From NCBI GenBank assembly GCA_002840095.1, contig PGZL01000008.1:248001-312000 (forward strand): a stretch of DNA of 64,000 nt, given 5' to 3'. The position numbers and the translations under genes are program-made. The notes under the pieces are model-generated. The model was given only the letters and a program-made list of their open reading frames with translations. It was not told the DNA's origin and made no database searches. Source of the DNA: Gammaproteobacteria bacterium HGW-Gammaproteobacteria-1. Its GTDB lineage: Bacteria > Pseudomonadota > Gammaproteobacteria > Thiohalomonadales > Thiohalomonadaceae. Shown here piece after piece: positions 1-12,492 of this stretch (position 1 is the stretch's first letter; every line of letters begins with the position of its first letter).

Positions 1-287
1 TGTTCTCCCGGGTGGGTGTGGGCGATGACGGGTCGATGGTGTTCCATCCGGGCAACAGCAAGGCGGGCGACTACGTCGAGCTGCGCTTCGAGATGAACAC
101 GCTGCTGGTGCTGTCCACCTGCCCGCATCCGCTTGATCCCAACCCGCAGTACGCGCCGAAGCAGGTGCAGCTGTCGGCATGGCGTTCCGAGCCGCCGGCG
201 GCGGACGATTACTGCCGCAATTTCCGTCCGGAGAACACGCGCGGTTTCTACAACACCGAAATCATGTTTCGTTGGGAGGGGCCATGA
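1..287 (+). CDS. DUF1989 protein, probable carboxyguanidine deiminase subunit (3' part)
   Basis: Only the last 94 residues are present; the 5' end lies upstream of the window. The visible part has the family pattern FHPGNSKAGDYVELRFEMN followed by STCPHPLDPNP, which matches the C-terminal half of urea amidolyase-associated protein 1 (DUF1989). Homologues of this pair have been shown to form a carboxyguanidine deiminase (CgdA/CgdB) that removes ammonia from carboxyguanidine to give allophanate. Its stop overlaps the ATG of the next gene (ATGA), so the two are translationally coupled. Function is inferred from family and context; which subunit it is cannot be decided here. Confidence 0.8.
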   Translation, partial: FSRVGVGDDGSMVFHPGNSKAGDYVELRFEMNTLLVLSTCPHPLDPNPQYAPKQVQLSAWRSEPPAADDYCRNFRPENTRGFYNTEIMFRWEGP

Positions 288-928
288 GCATAGTTGCAAG
301 CACGCTGAACCCGGCCCAGGCGGTGTACGACTACACCATACCCGCCGGCGAGCCGTGGATGTACGAGGTGAAACAGGGCCAGGTGATCCGCATGGTGGAT
401 CTGGAAGGCAACCAGGCGGTGGACACGCTGTTCTACAGTGCGGCCGATCCGAGTGAGCGTTACGATGCCCAGGCGACGATCCGCGCCCAGGGCAACATCT
501 ACCTGTCCACCGGCTCGGTGCTGCTGTCGACGGAAGGGCGGCCCATGCTGACCGTCGTTGCCGACACCTGCGGCCGCCACGATACCCTGGGCGGCGCCTG
601 TGCCGCGGAGAGCAACACCGTGCGTTATGCGCTGAAGACGCGCTCCATGCACAGCTGCCGCGACAACTATCTCATCGCCCTGGCGGAATGGGGCAACGGG
701 ATGAACAAGCGCGATCTCACCAGCAACGTCAACTTCTTCATGAACGTGCCGGTGACGCAGGACGGCGGCCTCACCTTCGCCGACGGCATCTCGGCGCCGG
801 GCAAGTACGTGGAGCTGCGCGCGGAGATGGACGTGTTGGTGCTGATCTCCAACTGTCCGCAGTTGAACAACCCCTGCAATGCCTACAACCCGACCCCGGC
901 GCAAATCCTGATCTGGGACGTTGTGTAG
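284..928 (+). CDS. DUF1989 protein, probable second carboxyguanidine deiminase subunit
   Basis: A 214-residue protein starting at the ATG that overlaps the previous stop. It is a DUF1989 paralogue of its neighbour: the segment [21 protein letters not shown] parallels the upstream protein's C-terminus. A Cys/His-rich stretch, [17 protein letters not shown], is a plausible metal-binding region. Known family members, long called urea amidolyase-associated protein 2, form with the first subunit a heteromeric carboxyguanidine deiminase producing allophanate and ammonia. The gene is followed by a 118-bp gap holding the riboswitch-like element and then the carboxylase, which fits a guanidine rather than a urea pathway. 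Confidence 0.85.
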
Positions 929-943
929 CACCAACAAAAAAGA

Positions 944-990
944 CTGTGGGACGACCCGCAGCTCTCTCACCCATGCCGGGACGGCCCGGC
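944..990 (+). promoter_or_regulatory. Guanidine-II (mini-ykkC) riboswitch candidate
   Basis: Two hairpins, each with an ACGR tetraloop, separated by 13 nt. Hairpin 1 is CTGTGGG-ACGA-CCCGCAG (944-961; 7 bp, one G-U pair). Hairpin 2 is GCCGGG-ACGG-CCCGGC (975-990; 6 perfect pairs). Twin stems capped by ACGR are the defining consensus of the guanidine-II riboswitch. It lies 56 nt upstream of the carboxylase ATG, whose ribosome site (AGGTGGAG) is at about 1035-1042, so control of translation of the carboxylase is likely. The match is by eye, not by a covariance model. Confidence 0.8.
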
Positions 991-1046
991 CCCTCGACCG
1001 TAAGACTCGCCGCCAGCGCGGCCAGCAGAATGACAGGTGGAGAGAC

Positions 1047-4000
1047 ATGTTCGACAAGATTCTGATTGCCAACCGCGGCGCCATTGCCTGCCGCATCATC
1101 CGCACCCTGAAGAAGATGGGCATCAAGTCGGTGGCCGTGTATTCCGAGGCCGACCGCCACTCGCTGCACGTGCGCGAGGCGGACGAGGCCATCTGCGTCG
1201 GTCCGGCGCCGGCGGCGGAAAGTTACCTGCGCCAGAACGTGATCCTGGATGCTGCCAGGCAGAGCGGGGCCCAGGCGATCCATCCGGGCTACGGCTTTCT
1301 CAGCGAGAACGCCGCCTTCGCCGAGGCCTGCGCGGCGGCGGACATCGCCTTCATCGGCCCGACGCCGCGGCAGATGCGCGACTTCGGTCTCAAGCACACC
1401 GCGCGCGAACTGGCCCAGGCCAACGGCGTACCCCTGCTGCCGGGCAGCGGCCTGCTCGACGACGTGGCCCACGCCACGCGTGAGGCCTCTCGCATCGGCT
1501 ACCCGGTGATGCTGAAGAGCACCGCCGGCGGCGGCGGCATCGGCATGCAGCTGTGCTGGAGCGAGCAGGAACTTATCGATGCCTTCCATTCGGTGGAGCG
1601 GCTGGCGCGCAACAATTTTTCCCAGGGCGGCATCTTCCTGGAGAAGTACGTGGAGATCGCCCGCCACATCGAGGTGCAGATCTTCGGCGACGGCCAGGGC
1701 AATATCGCCGCCTTGGGCGAGCGCGATTGCTCGGTGCAGCGGCGCAACCAGAAGGTGATCGAGGAGACCCCGGCGCCGGGTCTCAGCGACGAAACCCGGG
1801 CACGCCTGTATGCGGCGGCGATCAAGCTGGGCCAGGCGGTGCAGTACCGTTCCGCCGGCACCGTCGAGTTCGTGTTCGACGTGAAGAGCGGCGAGTTCTA
1901 TTTCCTGGAGGTGAACACCCGTTTGCAGGTGGAGCACGGCGTCACCGAGAAGGTGAGCGGCGTCGACCTGGTGGAATGGATGGTGCGCACCGCCGCCGGC
2001 GAGCCGCCTGCACTGAACACCTATGTGCACAAGCCCGTCGGTCACTCGGTGCAGGTGCGCCTCTATGCCGAGGACCCGGGCAAGAATTTCCAGCCCAGCA
2101 GCGGCCTGCTCACCGAGGCCTGCTTCCCGGACAATTTGCGGATCGATACCTGGGTGGAGAGCGGCAGCGAGGTGTCGGCGTATTACGATCCGATGCTCGC
2201 CAAGGTCATCAGTCACGCCGCCAGCCGCGAACAGGCCATCGTGCAGCTTGATGTGGCCCTGGCGCAGACGCGGCTCCACGGCATCGAAACCAATCTCGCC
2301 TATCTGCGCCAGGTGCTGGCCGACGAGGTGTTTGCGGCGGGCGAGCAGTACACGCGCTATCTCGGCAGCTTCGCCTACGCGGCGCACACGGTGGAAGTGT
2401 TGCAGCCGGGCACGCAGTCCATGATCCAGGACTATCCGGGCCGTACCGGCTATTGGGACGTGGGCGTGCCGCCGTCGGGTCCGATGGACCACTACGCCTT
2501 CCGCCTCGCCAACCGCATCGTCGGCAATGGCGAAGGCACCGCGGCGCTGGAGCTGACGGTCACCGGGCCCACCCTGCGCTTCAACACCGATACGGTGATC
2601 GCGCTCACCGGCGCCATGATGAAGGCGGAACTGGACGGCGCGCCGATCGACTACTGGAAGCCCGTTGCGGTCAACGCGGGCAGCGTGCTCCGGCTGCGCG
2701 GCATCCAGGGCGGCGGCAACCGCACCTATCTTTCCGTGCAGGGCGGCTTCGACGTGCCCGACTACATGGGCAGCAAGTCCACCTTCACCCTGGGCCAGTT
2801 CGGCGGTCACGGCGGCCGTGTGCTGCGCGTGGGCGACGTGCTGCGCCTCACCGGCGCCGTGGCCGACAGTCGCCGCGGCGCACCGGTGCCGCAAGCGCTG
2901 GTGCCGGACTATGCCGCCACCTGGGAGGTGGCGGTGATGTACGGTCCGCACGGCGCGCCCGACTTCTTCACCGCCGAGGACATCGCCACCTTCTTCGCCA
3001 CCGAGTGGGAGGTGCACTACAACTCCTCGCGTACCGGCGTGCGCCTCATCGGCCCCAAGCCGCAGTGGGCGCGCAAGGACGGCGGCGAGGCCGGCCTGCA
3101 TCCGTCGAACATTCACGACAATGCCTATGCCGTCGGCGCGGTGGATTTCACCGGCGACATGCCGGTGATCCTCGGCCCCGACGGCCCCAGCCTGGGCGGC
3201 TTCGTCTGCCCCGTCACCATCGTGCAGGCGGAGTTGTGGAAGGTGGGCCAGTTCCGGCCCGGCGACCGGGTGCGCTTCAAGGCCATAGACGTGGCCGAGG
3301 CGAACCGGCTGGAGCAGGCGCAGGATGCGGCGATCCATACGCTGGCCGCAGCCGACCTGAAAGCGCAGGCCTTCGTGACCGCCGGGGGCGAGGTGCAGCC
3401 GGTGTTGCGGGAGATCGCCGCCCAGGCCGAGCGCCCGGCGGTGGTCTACCGTCAGGCCGGCGACCGTTACCTGCTGGTGGAGTACGGTCCGCTGGTGCTC
3501 GATCTGGAACTGCGCTTTCGCGTGCAGGCTTTGCTGGAGCATCTGCGTGCGCAACACATGCCGGGCATCATCGACATGACGCCGGGCATACGCTCGCTGC
3601 AATTGCACTACGACGCGCGCGTCATCGGCCAGCAGGAATTGTTGCAGCAGCTGATCGCCGCCGAGGCGCAGCTGCCGTCGGTGGACGACATGGCGGTGGC
3701 GTCGCGCATCGTGCACCTGCCGCTGTCCTGGGATGACCCGGCCACGCGCCTCGCCATCGACAAGTACATGCAGTCGGTGCGCCCCGACGCGCCCTGGTGT
3801 CCGAGCAACATCGAGTTCATCCGCCGCATCAACGGCCTCGACTCGATAGACGAGGTGAAGCGCATTGTGTTCGAGGCCAGCTATCTGGTGATGGGCCTGG
3901 GCGACGTCTATCTCGGCGCGCCGGTGGCGACGCCGCTGGACCCGCGCCATCGCCTGGTGACCACCAAGTACAACCCGGCGCGCACCTGGACGCCGGAGAA

Positions 4001-4661
4001 CGCCGTCGGCATCGGCGGCGCCTATATGTGCGTCTACGGCATGGAGGGCCCCGGCGGCTATCAGTTCGTCGGCCGCACGGTGCAGATGTGGAACCGTTAC
4101 CGGCAGACCACTAACTTCACCGACGGCAAGCAGTGGCTGCTGCGTTTCTTCGATCAAATCCGTTTCTATCCGGTGAGCGGCGAGGAGCTGCTGCGCATGC
4201 GCGAGGATTTCCCTCACGGCGGCGTCGCGGTGAAGGTGGAACACAGCGAACTGCGTCTGGCCGATTACCGTCGCTTTCTCGCCGCCAACGACGCATCGAT
4301 CGGTGCATTCAAGCAGAAGCAGCAGGCGGCCTTCGAGGCCGAGCGCGAACGCTGGGAACAGAGCGGCCAGGCCCACTACGACAGCGACCCGGCCGGCGAT
4401 GCCGCGGGCAGCGATGCGGCGCTGGATATCCCGCCCGGCTGCATCGCCGTCGCCTCGCCCGTGACCGGCAGCGTGTGGCACATCCCGATCAAGGCCGGTG
4501 ATCGCGTCGCACTGGATCAGGAGCTGGTGGTGGTGGAGGCGATGAAGATGGAGATACCGATCAACGCCGACGAGGCGGGCGAGGTGATCGAGGTGTTGTG
4601 CGCCCAGGGCAGCCCGGTGTCCGCCGGACAGGCCCTCATCATTGTGCGACCGGAGGTGTGA
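1047..4661 (+). CDS. Biotin-dependent urea/guanidine carboxylase
   Basis: A 1204-residue multidomain carboxylase. The N-terminal biotin carboxylase domain (about 1-450) shows [21 protein letters not shown], the ATP loop [11 protein letters not shown] and [13 protein letters not shown]. The middle (about 480-1050) is the carboxyltransferase region related to allophanate hydrolase subunits KipA/KipI. The C-terminus is a biotin carrier domain with EAMKMEIP, the biotinylated Lys being about residue 1167. The start at 1047 follows AGGTGGAG and gives the usual [11 protein letters not shown] opening. Family members carboxylate urea to allophanate or guanidine to carboxyguanidine. The adjoining DUF1989 deiminase genes and guanidine-II-like element favour guanidine; this is inference from context. 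Confidence 0.92.
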
Positions 4662-4662
4662 G

Positions 4663-6465
4663 ATGGAATTGTCACTGGATATCGCCGGTCTGCGCGCCGC
4701 TTACCGCGACGGCCGTTACACCGTAACGCAGGTGCTGGACGAGGTGTTGCGCCGCATCGACTCCGCACCGCAACTCAACGTCTGGATCACGCGGCTGACG
4801 CGGGAGCAGGTGATGGATTATGTGGCGCGGCTGGCCGGGCGCAGGCCCGGCGAGCTGCCGCTGTACGGCATTCCTTTCGCCATCAAGGACAACATCGATC
4901 TGGCCGGGGTGCCCACCACCGCGGCCTGTGCCGAGTATGCCTACACGCCCGCCGAGTCGGCCTTCGTGGTGCAGCGCCTGATCGATGCCGGCGCCATCCC
5001 CGTCGGCAAGACCAACCTGGATCAGTTCGCCACCGGCCTCAACGGCACGCGCTCGCCCTATGGCGTCTGTGCCAACCCGTTCAACCCGGACTACATCGCC
5101 GGCGGTTCGTCATCCGGTTCGGCGGTGAGCGTGGCGCAGCAGCTGGTGAGCTTTTCCCTCGGCACCGATACCGCCGGTTCGGGCCGTGTGCCGGCCGCCT
5201 ACAACAACCTCATCGGCCTCAAGCCGACCCGCGGCCTCTTGTCCACCCGCGGCGTGGTGCCCGCCTGCCGCTCTCTCGATTGCGTGTCGGTGTTCGCCTT
5301 CAATGCCCAGGATGCGCAGAGCGTATTCGAGGTGGCGGCGGCCTATGACCGCGAGGAGCCTTTTGCGCGCCCGGCGGAGACGCCGCGCCTGGGCAGCCGC
5401 GGCGTGCCGGCGCAGGGATTCCGCTTCGGCGTGCCGCGGGCCGATCAACTGGAGTTCTTCGGTGACGAGGCTTACGCCCGCCTGTTTGCGCAGTCGGTGC
5501 GCCAGCTGGAGGCCCTGGGCGGCGTGCCGGTGGAAATCGACTTTGCCCCGTTTCTCGCCGCCGCGCGCCTGCTCTACGAGGGACCGTGGGTGTCCGAGCG
5601 CTACGCGGCCATCGAGGACTTCATCGGCCGGCATGCCGACGCGCTGTTGCCGGTGACGCGCGCCATCATCGAAGGGGGCGCGCGCCCCGGCGCGGTGGAT
5701 GCCTTCAAGGCGAGCTATCGCCTGGCGGAGTTGTGCCGGCAGAGCGAGCGGGTGTGGGAGCAGGTGGACGTGATGCTGACGCCGACGGCGGGCACCCACT
5801 ACAGCGTCGCGCAGATGCTGGCCGAGCCGATCAGGTGCAACAGTGATCTCGGTTACTACACCAATTTCATGAATCTGCTCGACCTGGCCGCGGTGGCGGT
5901 ACCCAGCGGATTCACCGAAAGCAGCCTGCCCTTCGGCATCACCCTGGTGGCGCCGGCCTTTACCGATGGCGACCTGCTGCGCCTGGCGGCGCGCCTGCAT
6001 GCAGCGGCGGAAACCGGCGCCGGCCTGGCCCGCACCGCGGTGCCGGCGTCCGAACCGGCAGCAGGTGTGGCCGGCGACGAGATGGCCATCGCGGTGTGCG
6101 GGGCCCACATGGGCGGGCTGCCGCTCAACGAGGAGCTGACCGGCCGCGGCGGCCGCCTGCTCATGCGCACCCGCACCGCACCCTGTTACCGCCTCTATGC
6201 CCTGCCCGGCGGACCGCCGGTACGGCCCGGTCTGGTGCGGGTGGATGAAGGCGGCGGCGCCATCGAGCTGGAGGTATGGAGCCTGCCGCGCTGGGCGGTG
6301 GGGGGATTCATGGCCGGTATTCCGGCGCCCCTGGCCATCGGCCGGGTGCAGCTGGAAGACGGCGGCGCCGTGGCCGGGTTCGTTTGCGAGGCCTACGCCG
6401 CGGCGGCGGCGGAGGATGTCACGGCCCTGGGCGGCTGGCGCGCCTATCTGGGCCGCGCCTCCTGA
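4663..6465 (+). CDS. atzF: Allophanate hydrolase
   Basis: A 600-residue enzyme converting allophanate to CO2 and two ammonia. The amidase-signature domain (about 1-450) carries the Ser-cisSer-Lys triad: Lys75 in PFAIKDNIDLAG, the cis-Ser in IAGGSSSGSAVS near 150, and nucleophile Ser173 in GTDTAGSGRVPA. The C-terminal 130 residues (from about EMAIAVCGAHMGG) are the second AtzF domain, so the protein is full length. The ATG follows the carboxylase stop by one base, which indicates tight coupling. It is the last step of the pathway whether the entry substrate is urea or guanidine, and the operon ends here. Confidence 0.93.
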   Translation: MELSLDIAGLRAAYRDGRYTVTQVLDEVLRRIDSAPQLNVWITRLTREQVMDYVARLAGRRPGELPLYGIPFAIKDNIDLAGVPTTAACAEYAYTPAESAFVVQRLIDAGAIPVGKTNLDQFATGLNGTRSPYGVCANPFNPDYIAGGSSSGSAVSVAQQLVSFSLGTDTAGSGRVPAAYNNLIGLKPTRGLLSTRGVVPACRSLDCVSVFAFNAQDAQSVFEVAAAYDREEPFARPAETPRLGSRGVPAQGFRFGVPRADQLEFFGDEAYARLFAQSVRQLEALGGVPVEIDFAPFLAAARLLYEGPWVSERYAAIEDFIGRHADALLPVTRAIIEGGARPGAVDAFKASYRLAELCRQSERVWEQVDVMLTPTAGTHYSVAQMLAEPIRCNSDLGYYTNFMNLLDLAAVAVPSGFTESSLPFGITLVAPAFTDGDLLRLAARLHAAAETGAGLARTAVPASEPAAGVAGDEMAIAVCGAHMGGLPLNEELTGRGGRLLMRTRTAPCYRLYALPGGPPVRPGLVRVDEGGGAIELEVWSLPRWAVGGFMAGIPAPLAIGRVQLEDGGAVAGFVCEAYAAAAAEDVTALGGWRAYLGRAS

Positions 6466-6808: not shown

Positions 6809-6856
6809 TGCACCATAACTGTGCGCTACGGAGGACAAGCAGGCACATATTGGTGC
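6809..6856 (+). promoter_or_regulatory. Two NtrC-like binding sites
   Basis: Site 1 (6809-6825) reads TGCACCATAACTGTGCG: GCAC, seven bases, GTGC, the spacing of enteric NtrC sites. Site 2 (6843-6856) is GCACATATTGGTGC, like a classical site but one base short in the spacer. Both lie 65-115 bp upstream of the sigma-54-type promoter at 6922, the usual enhancer distance. NtrC itself is not in the window. Confidence 0.6.
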
Positions 6857-6921: not shown

Positions 6922-6938
6922 TTGGCACAGGCGATGCA
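6922..6938 (+). promoter_or_regulatory. Sigma-54 (-24/-12) promoter
   Basis: TTGGCACAGGCGATGCA matches the sigma-54 consensus TGGCAC-N5-TTGCA: GG and GC are exactly 10 bases apart, with one mismatch (A for T) in the -12 element. It is 56 bp upstream of the porin start and would drive porin-glnK-amtB under nitrogen limitation together with the NtrC-like sites. Confidence 0.7.
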
Positions 6939-6993
6939 ATAAGTTTCTTGCGCAGTTTTGTACGCAACCCATTCCAAACCGAGGAGAGAAACG

Positions 6994-7746
6994 ATGAGCA
7001 GCATGTTGAAGAAATCTGTACTGGGTTCCGCCGTTGCCCTGGCCCTGCTGGCCGGTGGCCAGGCTGTCGCCTCCGAGCTGACCGCCAACGCAGGCATCGT
7101 GTCCAACTACGTGTACCGTGGCGAGACCCAGAACGGTGACCTGTCCGCCATCCAGGGCGGCATCGACTACAGCCACGATTCCGGCTTCTACGTCGGCACC
7201 TGGAGCTCCAGCCTGAACGCCGCCAGCGGCTACGAGATGGACATCTACGCCGGTTACGGTTTCGAAGTCAGCGGCATCGGCATGGACGTCGGCTACATCT
7301 CCTACATGTACCCCATGGGCGAAACCAACGGTGACCCCTCCACCGAGAACAAGTATGACTTCCAGGAGATCTACGTCGGCGCCAGCTACGGCATGTTCAG
7401 CGCCAAGTACTCCTACTCCGACAACTACCTGGGCCACAGCGAGTACGCTGCGGACGGCGCCAAGAAGGCTGCCTACTACCTGGAGCTGGGCATGGACTAC
7501 CCGCTGAGCGACGAGATGACCCTGGGTCTGCACGTGGGCCAGAAGGCCGGCGCCTTCTTCGACGTCGACGCCTCCCAGTGCACCACCACCATCTGCGACG
7601 GCGCCGTGACCGACTACAGCGTCAGCCTGAGCAAGGGTGAGTTCAGCTTCAAGGTCAGCAACATGGACAACAAGAAGTCCTCCGTTGCCGCCCAGTCCGA
7701 CAACTTCCGCGTAATCGTCGGCTACACCCACGACATCGCGCTGTAA
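6994..7746 (+). CDS. TorF-family putative porin (gcw_chp family)
   Basis: A 250-residue outer-membrane protein with a signal peptide (MSSMLKKSVLGSAVALALLAGGQAVAS, cleavage after AVAS) and alternating beta-strand sequence typical of the TorF/gcw_chp family, opening SELTANAGIVSNYVYRGETQ. The start follows GAGGAGAGAAACG. It is the first gene after the sigma-54-type promoter and precedes glnK-amtB, an arrangement seen in many proteobacteria, so it probably admits a small nitrogen compound across the outer membrane. The specific substrate is unknown. Two Cys residues near the C-terminus (ASQCTTTICDG) may form a disulfide loop. Confidence 0.82.
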   Translation: MSSMLKKSVLGSAVALALLAGGQAVASELTANAGIVSNYVYRGETQNGDLSAIQGGIDYSHDSGFYVGTWSSSLNAASGYEMDIYAGYGFEVSGIGMDVGYISYMYPMGETNGDPSTENKYDFQEIYVGASYGMFSAKYSYSDNYLGHSEYAADGAKKAAYYLELGMDYPLSDEMTLGLHVGQKAGAFFDVDASQCTTTICDGAVTDYSVSLSKGEFSFKVSNMDNKKSSVAAQSDNFRVIVGYTHDIAL

Positions 7747-7798: not shown

Positions 7799-8140
<342 letters not shown>

Positions 8141-8154
8141 CGGAGGATGCGACG

Positions 8155-9402
<1,248 letters not shown>

Positions 9403-10744: not shown

Positions 10745-11542
10745 ATGAATGTCATCGCCCTGTCCCCCTTCGACCTGAGCCTGACGGCCCTGCTGGTGCT
10801 GCTGCTGGCCTTTCTTTCCTGGCGCCTGCAACTGGGCATGGAGCGCCGGCTGCTCGTCGCCGCCCTGCGCACCACCATCCAGCTCATGCTCATCGGCCTG
10901 GTGCTCAAGGTCTTGTTCGACCATGTCCAGTGGTGGTGGGTCAGCCTGATGGCGCTGATCATGCTGCTGGTGGCGGGGCGCGAGGTGATGGCCCGGCAGC
11001 AGCGCCGCTTCGCCGGCTGGCGCGGCTACGGCGTCGGCACCAGCGCCATGTTTGTTTCGTCCTTTACCGTCACCCTGCTGGCCCTGATTGTGGTCATCGG
11101 CAACGACCCCTGGTATCAACCGCAGTATGCAATTCCGCTGCTGGGCATGGTGCTGGGCAATACCATGAACGGCATCGCCCTGGGCATGGATCGCCTCACC
11201 AGCGGCGCCTGGCAGCAGCGCACGGTGATCGAGGCGCGGCTGCTCCTGGGCCAGGGCGCCATGGAGGCGGTGAGCGATCTGCGCCGCGAGGCCATGCGCG
11301 TCGGCATGATCCCCATGATCAATTCCATGGCGGCCGCCGGCATCGTCAGCCTGCCGGGCATGATGACCGGCCAGATCCTGGCCGGCACGCCGCCGTTGGA
11401 GGCGGTGAAATACCAGATACTGGTGATGTTCCTCATCACCGCCGGCACCGGTTTCGGCACCATGGTGGCGGTATGGCGCGGCGCCCGCAGCCTGTTCGAC
11501 GAGCGGGAGCGCCTGCGCCTGGAACGGTTGGCGAATTCTTGA
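10745..11542 (+). CDS. fetB: ABC transporter permease, FetB/YbbM type
   Basis: A 265-residue inner-membrane protein with about seven hydrophobic segments. Family stretches include GNTMNGIALGMDRL, LRREAMRVGMIPMINSMAAAGIVSLPGMMTGQILAG and FLITAGTGFGTMV. It pairs with the upstream ATPase as a FetAB-like exporter, where iron is the substrate proposed in E. coli. The gap to fetA is filled by a repeat, so co-transcription would have to pass through a strong hairpin. The gene ends six bases before a composite repeat. Confidence 0.82.
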   Translation: MNVIALSPFDLSLTALLVLLLAFLSWRLQLGMERRLLVAALRTTIQLMLIGLVLKVLFDHVQWWWVSLMALIMLLVAGREVMARQQRRFAGWRGYGVGTSAMFVSSFTVTLLALIVVIGNDPWYQPQYAIPLLGMVLGNTMNGIALGMDRLTSGAWQQRTVIEARLLLGQGAMEAVSDLRREAMRVGMIPMINSMAAAGIVSLPGMMTGQILAGTPPLEAVKYQILVMFLITAGTGFGTMVAVWRGARSLFDERERLRLERLANS

Positions 11543-11547
11543 AAGCA

Positions 11548-11812
11548 GTTTCGAGTTTCGGGTTTGAAATTTCGGACGGAGCGCGGAGAGGTGAATCTGG
11601 ACGCGCCGGTAGGATGGGTAGAGCGTAGCGAAACCCTTCATGCGGCGTAAGGGAAAAGCGATGGGTTTCGCGTTGCTCTACCCATCCTACATATGAAAGA
11701 GGTTTCGAGTTTCGGGTTGGAAGTTTCGCATGGCCACGACACACTCTTGCCAAAACTCGAAACTCGAAACTCGAAACTCGAAACTCGAAACTCGAAACTC
11801 GAAACTCGAAAC
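11548..11812. repeat. Composite repeat G, copy 1 (heptad array plus nested family A hairpin)
   Basis: It starts with GTTTCGAGTTTCGGG, contains a complete family A hairpin (11609-11690), and ends in eight tandem copies of the heptamer AACTCGA (11754-11809). The outer ends are inverted with respect to each other (GTTTCGAG / CTCGAAAC). It is nearly identical to 12226-12492, in the same orientation 678 bp away. Confidence 0.9.
11609..11690. repeat. Family A hairpin (GTAGGATGGGTAGAGC), copy 1
   Basis: GTAGGATGGGTAGAGCG at the left and CTCTACCCATCCTAC at the right, with a second paired segment (GCGAAACCC / GGGTTTCGC) nearer the centre. This 82-bp element lies inside composite repeat G and also occurs alone at 46967-47049. 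Confidence 0.9.
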
Positions 11813-12220
11813 CTGGCGTCGGGCGCCGGGGTGTACAAATGGGTCGACGAGCAGGGCCGGGTGCATTACGGCGAGCGGCCGCCGGAGCGTATCCAGGCGC
11901 AGGAGATGCAGATCAAGGAAGCGCCGCCGGATGTGTCACCGATCGAGGACGAGGCGGGACGGCGCGACAAGGAACAACGCCTGTTGCGTGCCTTCGATGA
12001 GGAGCGGGCGCAGAAGAAGGAATTGCAGCAGAAGAGCCGCGAGGAACAGGAAAAGCGGCAGCGCAACTGCGCCCTCGCCCGCGACCGTCTGCGGCGCTAC
12101 CAGAATGCAAGCAGCCTGTACAACCTGGACAAGCAGGGCGAACGCCGCACCCTCAGCGACGCGGAGCGCAGTGCCTCCGAACAGCGCGCGCAGCAGGACG
12201 TGGCGCGTTGGTGTGATTGA
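11693..12220 (+). CDS. DUF4124-like protein whose 5' end is overwritten by repeat DNA
   Basis: From about 11820 the frame encodes GAGVYKWVDEQGRVHYGERPPE, a classic DUF4124 opening, then a charged helical/coiled-coil region (EERAQKKELQQKSREEQEKRQRNC) and a C-terminal ALARDRLRRYQNASSLY. DUF4124 proteins normally begin with a signal peptide placed just before VYKW. Here that part is replaced by composite repeat G, whose heptamers are read as LETRNSK units. The only in-frame ATG (11693) lies inside the repeat and gives no signal peptide. It is probably a broken or mislocalised envelope protein, and heptamer number would change the reading frame. Confidence 0.65.
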   Translation: MKEVSSFGLEVSHGHDTLLPKLETRNSKLETRNSKLETRNLASGAGVYKWVDEQGRVHYGERPPERIQAQEMQIKEAPPDVSPIEDEAGRRDKEQRLLRAFDEERAQKKELQQKSREEQEKRQRNCALARDRLRRYQNASSLYNLDKQGERRTLSDAERSASEQRAQQDVARWCD

Positions 12221-12225
12221 ATCCG

Positions 12226-12492
12226 GTTTCGAGTTTCGGGTTTGAAGTTTCGGACGGAGGGCGGAGAGGTGAATCTGGACGCGCCGGTAGGATGGGTAGA
12301 GCGTAGCGAAACCCATCATGCGGCGTAAGGGAAAAGCGATGGGTTTCGCGTTGCTCTACCCATCCTACATATGAAAGAGGTTTCGAGTTTCGGGTCGGAA
12401 GTTTCGCAAGGCCACGACACACTCTTGCCGAAACTCGAAACTCGAAACTCGAAACTCGAAACTCGAAACTTCGAAACTCGAAACTCGAAACT
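12226..12492. repeat. Composite repeat G, copy 2
   Basis: Near-identical direct copy of 11548-11812: same GTTTCGAGTTTCGGG start, same nested family A hairpin (12287-12368), same eight heptamers, one of them with an extra T (12467-12474). It ends one base before the speE stop codon. The two copies bracket the DUF4124-like gene. Confidence 0.9.
12287..12368. repeat. Family A hairpin (GTAGGATGGGTAGAGC), copy 2
   Basis: Same 82-bp palindrome as at 11609-11690, differing for example in GCGAAACCCATCATG against GCGAAACCCTTCATG. It is nested inside composite repeat G copy 2. Confidence 0.9.

Follow-up and report, generated by a model that had tools for sequence, protein, structure and literature searches.

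The twin hairpins at positions 944–990 of the 64-kb stretch of DNA analysed here (the window) are supported as a Guanidine-II (mini-ykkC) riboswitch aptamer, and they very probably act, with a probability that we would put at about 85%, as a translational ON switch within a polycistronic cgdA–cgdB–carboxylase–atzF transcript. The riboswitch adds one more case to a published, common arrangement; the surroundings upstream of it are more useful than the riboswitch itself and suggest that guanidine use is gated by nitrogen status first and by guanidine second. The element and the site on which it would act are laid out as follows.

944–961, plus strand: Guanidine-II hairpin P1, 7 bp including one G–U, loop ACGA (direct reading and RF01068)
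962–974, plus strand: inter-hairpin linker of 13 nt, with 962–966 (CUCUC) and 968–971 (CACC) as a candidate anti-Shine–Dalgarno against 1036–1044 (from the predicted fold)
975–990, plus strand: Guanidine-II hairpin P2, 6 bp, loop ACGG (direct reading and RF01068)
1036–1044, plus strand: GGUGGAGAG, putative ribosome-binding region for the carboxylase; in the fold predicted without ligand, it pairs with the linker

By direct reading, the end of P2 lies 56 nt before the carboxylase ATG (1047). The preliminary description had reported twin ACGR hairpins with stems of 7 and 6 bp and a 13-nt gap, ending 56 nt short of the ATG and placed between the second deiminase gene and the carboxylase, and each of these particulars proved exact. 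Its assignment to the Guanidine-II class held as well: the Rfam covariance model RF01068, which it had proposed to run, matched the plus strand at 943–989 with 36.1 bits, above the gathering score of 32, and E = 0.0015 over 64 kb, and this was the sole Rfam match at the gathering threshold within the window. With 150 of 752 first-look candidates scored, the 4.23-Mb genome gave no RF01068 match at E ≤ 0.001 other than the window element. A strict pattern of two ACGR loops, each on a stem of at least 5 bp, occurred once in the 64 kb read on both strands (128,000 strand-bases). In the best 80 related loci, defined below, the same pattern occurred 30 times in the 260 nt preceding the carboxylase and seven times elsewhere (1,972,846 strand-bases), and five of these seven sit directly 5′ of cgdA. 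The genes downstream of the window element, encoding guanidine carboxylase and allophanate hydrolase, provide a context of guanidine metabolism, and the ligand of the aptamer is presumably guanidine. Among same-family RF01068 matches, one (L012) precedes a carboxylase gene and another (L013) precedes a gene that by eye, from its translation, resembles a small multidrug-resistance exporter; a match in L014, below the cut-off and by eye within coding sequence, was rejected as false.

The genes around the riboswitch are listed next; L008 denotes the coordinate frame of the fetched DNA that includes the region upstream of the window.

3–287, plus strand: 3′ part of cgdA, carboxyguanidine deiminase subunit A (TIGR03425; whole gene L008:11544–12287)
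284–928, plus strand: cgdB, carboxyguanidine deiminase subunit B (TIGR03424, 349.8 bits, cut-off 284.7)
1047–4661, plus strand: guanidine carboxylase (TIGR02712 'urea carboxylase', 1949.7 bits, cut-off 1303.85; Asp at both diagnostic positions)
4663–6465, plus strand: allophanate hydrolase atzF (NF006043, TIGR02713)

The whole cgdA gene scored 366.2 bits against TIGR03425 (cut-off 205.95). By the rule given in the excerpted text of PMC11410670, guanidine carboxylases are told apart from urea carboxylases by Asp at the positions equivalent to 1330 and 1584 of the Kluyveromyces lactis enzyme. In an alignment to 5i8i, on the printed form of which the diagnostic positions were counted by hand, residue 700 of the window carboxylase is D, opposite K. 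lactis N1330, and the D of its GLGDVYLG motif aligns with K. lactis D1584. Because the carboxylase has both published guanidine-carboxylase aspartates, the operon is a guanidine rather than a urea carboxylase operon; the name urea carboxylase, used in the preliminary description, is ruled out by the two diagnostic residues and should be guanidine carboxylase. P1 starts 15 nt past the cgdB stop, and neither a sigma70-like promoter nor an intrinsic terminator was found in L008:11100–13100. Because of both observations, cgdA, cgdB, the carboxylase gene and atzF are likely to share a single transcript.

We then compared the internal position of the element across relatives, taken as the best 80 of at least 585 confirmed loci, chosen by similarity to the window carboxylase, with several loci being near relatives of one another. 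Seventy-eight of the 80 were evaluable; L083 and L093 were dropped because fewer than 60 nt precede their carboxylase start. Within this best-80 set, 49 of the 78 loci had an RF01068 match at E ≤ 0.1 in the 250 nt preceding the carboxylase, and 28 of 78 had one above the gathering score; when a looser hairpin pattern, with ACGN loops and one mismatch permitted, was accepted as an alternative to RF01068, the number of loci with an element in this position rose to 52 of 78. Three of the remaining 26 (L032, L038 and L045) have, by eye, two ACGR hairpins with a P1 mismatch. A threshold of E ≤ 0.1 is loose (control genomes gave matches in 4 of 14, two above the cut-off), and the counts come from a scored part of the first-look candidates; it is the position directly before the carboxylase that carries the weight. 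The preliminary description had called this internal position unusual, a view ruled out by the same placement in 52 of 78 relatives and by the layouts described in the excerpted texts of PMC12186494 and PMC12508155. An RF01068 match before cgdA, instead or additionally, was present in 4 of 78 loci (L052, L081, L082 and L086). Of the 52 loci that have the internal element, 26 also have a Guanidine-I further upstream, in the same orientation and inside the DNA that was fetched. L034 is dropped from this count; its Guanidine-I, like the minus-strand Guanidine-I of L047 and of L052, belongs to another contig whose coordinates overlap, and all three were excluded.

Pair types vary in both stems over 47 elements that were selected for paired stems, so that pairing is built in and pair variety is not: the third P1 pair is GC in 31, AT in 7, CG in 4, GT in 3 and unpaired in 2. 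From P2 to the ATG, 45 of the 47 have a spacer of 9–25 nt, the exceptions being the window (56 nt) and L037 (134 nt). Nine of these elements (L018, L022, L025, L026, L027, L028, L048, L065 and L079) combine one ACGC or ACGT loop with an ACGR loop, and elements of this kind may bind one ligand or have altered specificity. In two Azospirillum loci the cgdA leader has a Guanidine-I (3316–3437) followed by a long-linker twin ACGR pair (L051, about 3510–3576; L058, about 3510–3577), resembling a tandem of the two classes; these hairpins were recognised by pattern, without an RF01068 match. A second Guanidine-II-like hairpin pair, directed away from the carboxylase operon, is found on the minus strand of L052 (1192–1237) and L071 (1116–1161).

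The Guanidine-II class is described in the excerpts of PMC9094411 as a translational ON switch, in which a putative anti-Shine–Dalgarno in the linker is released from the ribosome site upon kissing of the loops. In the window, with guanidine absent, the 13-nt linker (CUCUC-U-CACC) would pair with GGUGGAGAG and hide the ribosome-binding region; with guanidine present, the two ACGR loops would kiss, the linker helix could not persist, and the carboxylase, and likewise atzF behind it, would be translated. The minimum-energy fold has 962–971 (CUCUC-U-CACC) paired with 1036–1044, with a complementarity of 9 bp and one bulge, and with P1 and P2 both still formed. The duplex between linker and ribosome site, computed for the 11-nt linker 964–974, has an energy of −10.8 kcal/mol and is no better than with shuffled linkers (z = −0.9), and the fold of 929–1076 has no marked stability, with z = −1.18 and 30 of 200 shuffles folding equally well. 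Forcing P1 and P2, in a model without ligand or kissing loops, raised the openness of the window Shine–Dalgarno from 0.31 to 0.41; the same model gave a rise of more than 0.1 in 8 of 46 elements and a lower value in 2. Taken together, the z-scores of fold and duplex and the small change in openness are weak as thermodynamic proof of switching. Over the 46 elements (L037 was left out, as its carboxylase start looks duplicated), the linker–Shine–Dalgarno duplex was not enriched (mean z = +0.26), with only L066 similarly strong, and a linker anti-Shine–Dalgarno is not supported as a general rule for carboxylase-linked elements. Because the fold and duplex evidence is modest and the 46 elements are unenriched, we only infer that the linker masks the ribosome site.

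Support for the ON switch includes, by analogy, an element at the same position in Vreelandella boliviensis that binds guanidine in vitro: in the excerpts of PMC12508155, in-line probing of the Guanidine-II element between cgdB and gca gave a KD of 93 µM for guanidine and 83 µM for methylguanidine, and the Guanidine-I element at the front bound guanidine at 44 µM, with no methylguanidine binding in the tested range. Counted against the ON switch is the 56-nt spacer, where 45 of 47 elements have 9–25 nt.

The aptamer could bind guanidine and exert control through mRNA stability or Rho-dependent polarity past cgdB in place of ribosome-site masking, which would suit a spacer longer than in 45 of 47 elements and a linker anti-Shine–Dalgarno that is not shared among elements; the excerpted PMC12508155 also cautions that transcript level and translation may be coupled. 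We nevertheless consider this mode of control unlikely, given the complementarity of the linker to the ribosome region (9 bp with one bulge) and the absence of an intrinsic terminator-like site from L008:11100–13100. A spacer of 56 nt against 9–25 nt in 45 of 47 might also mark a decaying element, with an intact aptamer and a link to the ribosome site severed by inserted sequence. The most similar of the best-80 loci (L085), in which the carboxylase pieces are 92.6% and 89.2% identical, lacks the element, and neither Guanidine-II nor Guanidine-I was found in its genome at E ≤ 0.1 (113 of 525 and 59 of 59 candidates scored). Decay is nonetheless quite improbable in our estimate, with both stems and loops of the window element intact, a score above the gathering cut-off and a linker complementary to the ribosome site; moreover, the carboxylase of L085 (5001–8515) reads as two pieces, in different frames, that lack some 33 residues between them, and that locus may be damaged or misassembled. 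By eye, the gap between cgdB and the carboxylase in L085 (4879–5001) holds a long inverted repeat.

A translational ON switch responding to guanidine remains our preferred reading. Methylguanidine or another guanidine derivative might be sensed besides or in place of guanidine, as the internal V. boliviensis element binds guanidine and methylguanidine similarly (KD 93 and 83 µM in the excerpts of PMC12508155), but in the window atzF directly follows the carboxylase and mgdH–mgdL are absent between those two genes, and we regard a derivative as an improbable ligand. That the hairpins are no aptamer and only a chance pair of GC-rich hairpins, to which the GC content of the matched stretch (0.72) might point, is already contradicted by conservation, as 52 of 78 relatives in the best-80 set have the element in the corresponding place; the covariance-model match exceeds the curated cut-off and one such pair occurs per 128,000 strand-bases, leaving chance with next to no weight.

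The preliminary description had also proposed looking for another guanidine riboswitch upstream of the window. One was found, a Guanidine-I aptamer, and it points to a divergent importer, not to the cgdA operon. The features of this upstream region are as follows.

L008:11237–11337, minus strand: Guanidine-I aptamer, 93.4 bits, about 660–760 nt before the first base of the window
L008:11340–11543: divergent region between the importer Guanidine-I and cgdA, about 460–660 nt before the first base of the window
L008:11365–11350, minus strand: sigma54-like site, 1 mismatch, its −12 end 13 nt before Guanidine-I
L008:11406–11422: perfect NtrC palindrome, between the two divergent sigma54-like sites
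L008:11493–11508, plus strand: sigma54-like site, 1 mismatch, preceding the cgdA ATG at 11544

Guanidine-I leads to a divergent ABC importer, the binding protein of which matches TIGR03427 with 562.2 bits (cut-off 333.9). A search of the cgdA leader against Rfam 15 gave no guanidine aptamer at E ≤ 1, which removes at that threshold a second guanidine aptamer ahead of cgdA as a candidate. Control of the carboxylase and hydrolase separately from the deiminase subunits, as the preliminary description had suggested, fits this genome, with its cgdA leader lacking a guanidine aptamer at E ≤ 1. Once overlapping contig coordinates had been removed, 2 of 78 relatives (L073 and L078) had a minus-strand Guanidine-I facing the cgdA operon, and in both a further Guanidine-I precedes cgdA itself. 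The pairing found here, of an internal Guanidine-II with a facing importer that has a separate Guanidine-I, was observed in 0 of 78, within DNA that for many loci ends 5 kb upstream; the split promoter layout upstream of the window is uncommon. Having an internal Guanidine-II as the sole guanidine aptamer is not special to this genome: of the 52 loci with internal Guanidine-II, 15 come from genomes that gave no Guanidine-I match at E ≤ 0.1.

Promoters dependent on sigma54 have the consensus GG(−24)/GC(−12), near TGGCACGNNNNTTGCW, and the NtrC palindrome is TGCACC-N5-GGTGCA. With up to two mismatches, the sigma54 pattern occurred twice in 16.7 kb, both times in the divergent region and pointing outward. 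The number is unremarkable (shuffle mean 3.95; 178 of 200 shuffles with two or more), and it is their place, orientation and closeness to consensus that give these putative sites their weight. Shuffles of the 203-nt divergent stretch produced a plus-strand sigma54 match with at most one mismatch in 7 of 2,000 cases and a perfect NtrC palindrome in 0 of 2,000, and the genome encodes both RpoN (498.5 bits, cut-off 277.35) and NtrC (765 bits, cut-off 558.6). Counting the aptamer upstream of the window and those of 38 relatives in the best-80 set, a sigma54-like site with at most two mismatches lay no more than 110 nt upstream of 29 of 39 Guanidine-I aptamers, compared with 40 of 3,900 dinucleotide shuffles and about 1.3% of random places in the same loci; this count omits L034 (other contig) and L059 (aptamer beginning at the contig end). 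The ten misses are cyanobacterial (L070, L073 and L078), campylobacterial (L055 and L080), L092, and four loci with three mismatches (L052, L076, L077 and L088). In the 120 nt before the carboxylase a sigma54-like site was present in 1 of 76 loci. Among genomes without Guanidine-I, 0 of 20 readable 250-nt cgdA leaders had a sigma54 site with at most two mismatches, and sigma54 is not supported as a rule for every guanidine operon; the promoters of those 20 leaders may lie further upstream.

We take COG3665 to be the deiminase family. In the excerpts of PMC12316311, COG3665 (102 genes, 59% named 'urea carboxylase') is assigned to sigma54 in alpha-, beta- and gammaproteobacteria, and the excerpted Burkholderia cenocepacia NtrC regulon table of PMC5491218 lists a urea carboxylase gene at −6.0. 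The excerpts of these two papers hold pieces of the sigma54/NtrC link, without joining it to guanidine; judged by title and start of abstract, none of the matches listed joined a guanidine riboswitch to sigma54/NtrC, in a search with subscription papers mostly outside its scope.

Judged from these sequence sites, the best reading is a series arrangement, with nitrogen control through sigma54/NtrC followed by guanidine sensing. Transcription of the operon would most likely start from the sigma54 promoter under NtrC, the carboxylase and hydrolase would be made only at nitrogen shortage with guanidine present, the deiminase subunits would answer to nitrogen status alone, and the divergent importer would be served by a separate sigma54-like promoter and a Guanidine-I riboswitch of its own. 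More broadly, we lean somewhat towards the view that many proteobacterial guanidine operons form an AND gate, which in this genome would be split divergently: the sigma54/NtrC promoter would fire only in nitrogen shortage, and the importer and carboxylase parts would each have to see guanidine, through Guanidine-I and Guanidine-II, respectively. The odds of this wider view are lowered because none of the 20 cgdA leaders in genomes without Guanidine-I has a sigma54 site. With the gate split as here, the deiminase subunits would be guanidine-blind and the internal Guanidine-II would be the only guanidine sensor of the catabolic operon. The locus offers a naturally split arrangement in which the role of that element can be tested with no Guanidine-I ahead of it on the transcript.

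Of the closest known systems, the V. boliviensis gca operon, in the excerpts of PMC12508155, likewise has Guanidine-II between cgdB and the carboxylase, together with an importer, cgdA/B, the carboxylase and atzF; there, however, Guanidine-I heads the entire operon including the importer, whereas here the divergent importer alone has Guanidine-I and the cgdA leader is without an aptamer, and mgdH/mgdL lie between the carboxylase and atzF, where the window has none. In three enterobacteria (excerpts of PMC12186494), Guanidine-I goes with the importer and deiminase, and Guanidine-II with the carboxylase and the hydrolase immediately downstream; the latter pairing is as in the window, but the enterobacterial importer and deiminase share Guanidine-I, whereas the window deiminase genes have no guanidine aptamer. 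The Escherichia coli sugE/gdx Guanidine-II element, in the excerpts of PMC9094411, resembles that of the window in its two ACGR hairpins, and its linker has a putative anti-Shine–Dalgarno, for which the window linker offers a candidate; it differs in serving an exporter gene, the window element being inside a catabolic operon. In Pseudanabaena (L073 and L078), the importer and the cgdA operon are divergent, as in the window genome, but Guanidine-I stands in each direction and no Guanidine-II was found before the carboxylase.

Further downstream in the window, a sigma54-like site with two mismatches lies at 6923–6938, and an NtrC-like site with two mismatches at 6809–6825, the latter being one of 15 such matches in the window against a shuffle mean of 7.16. 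The sigma54-like site is followed by ORFs that, named from their translations only, are porin-like (6958–7746), a PII-type protein (7802–8140) and ammonium transporter-like (8155–9402). At about 11436–12450, overlapping ORFs with the repeated peptides KLETRNSKLETRNS and GWVEQRETHRFSLTPH indicate repeated DNA.
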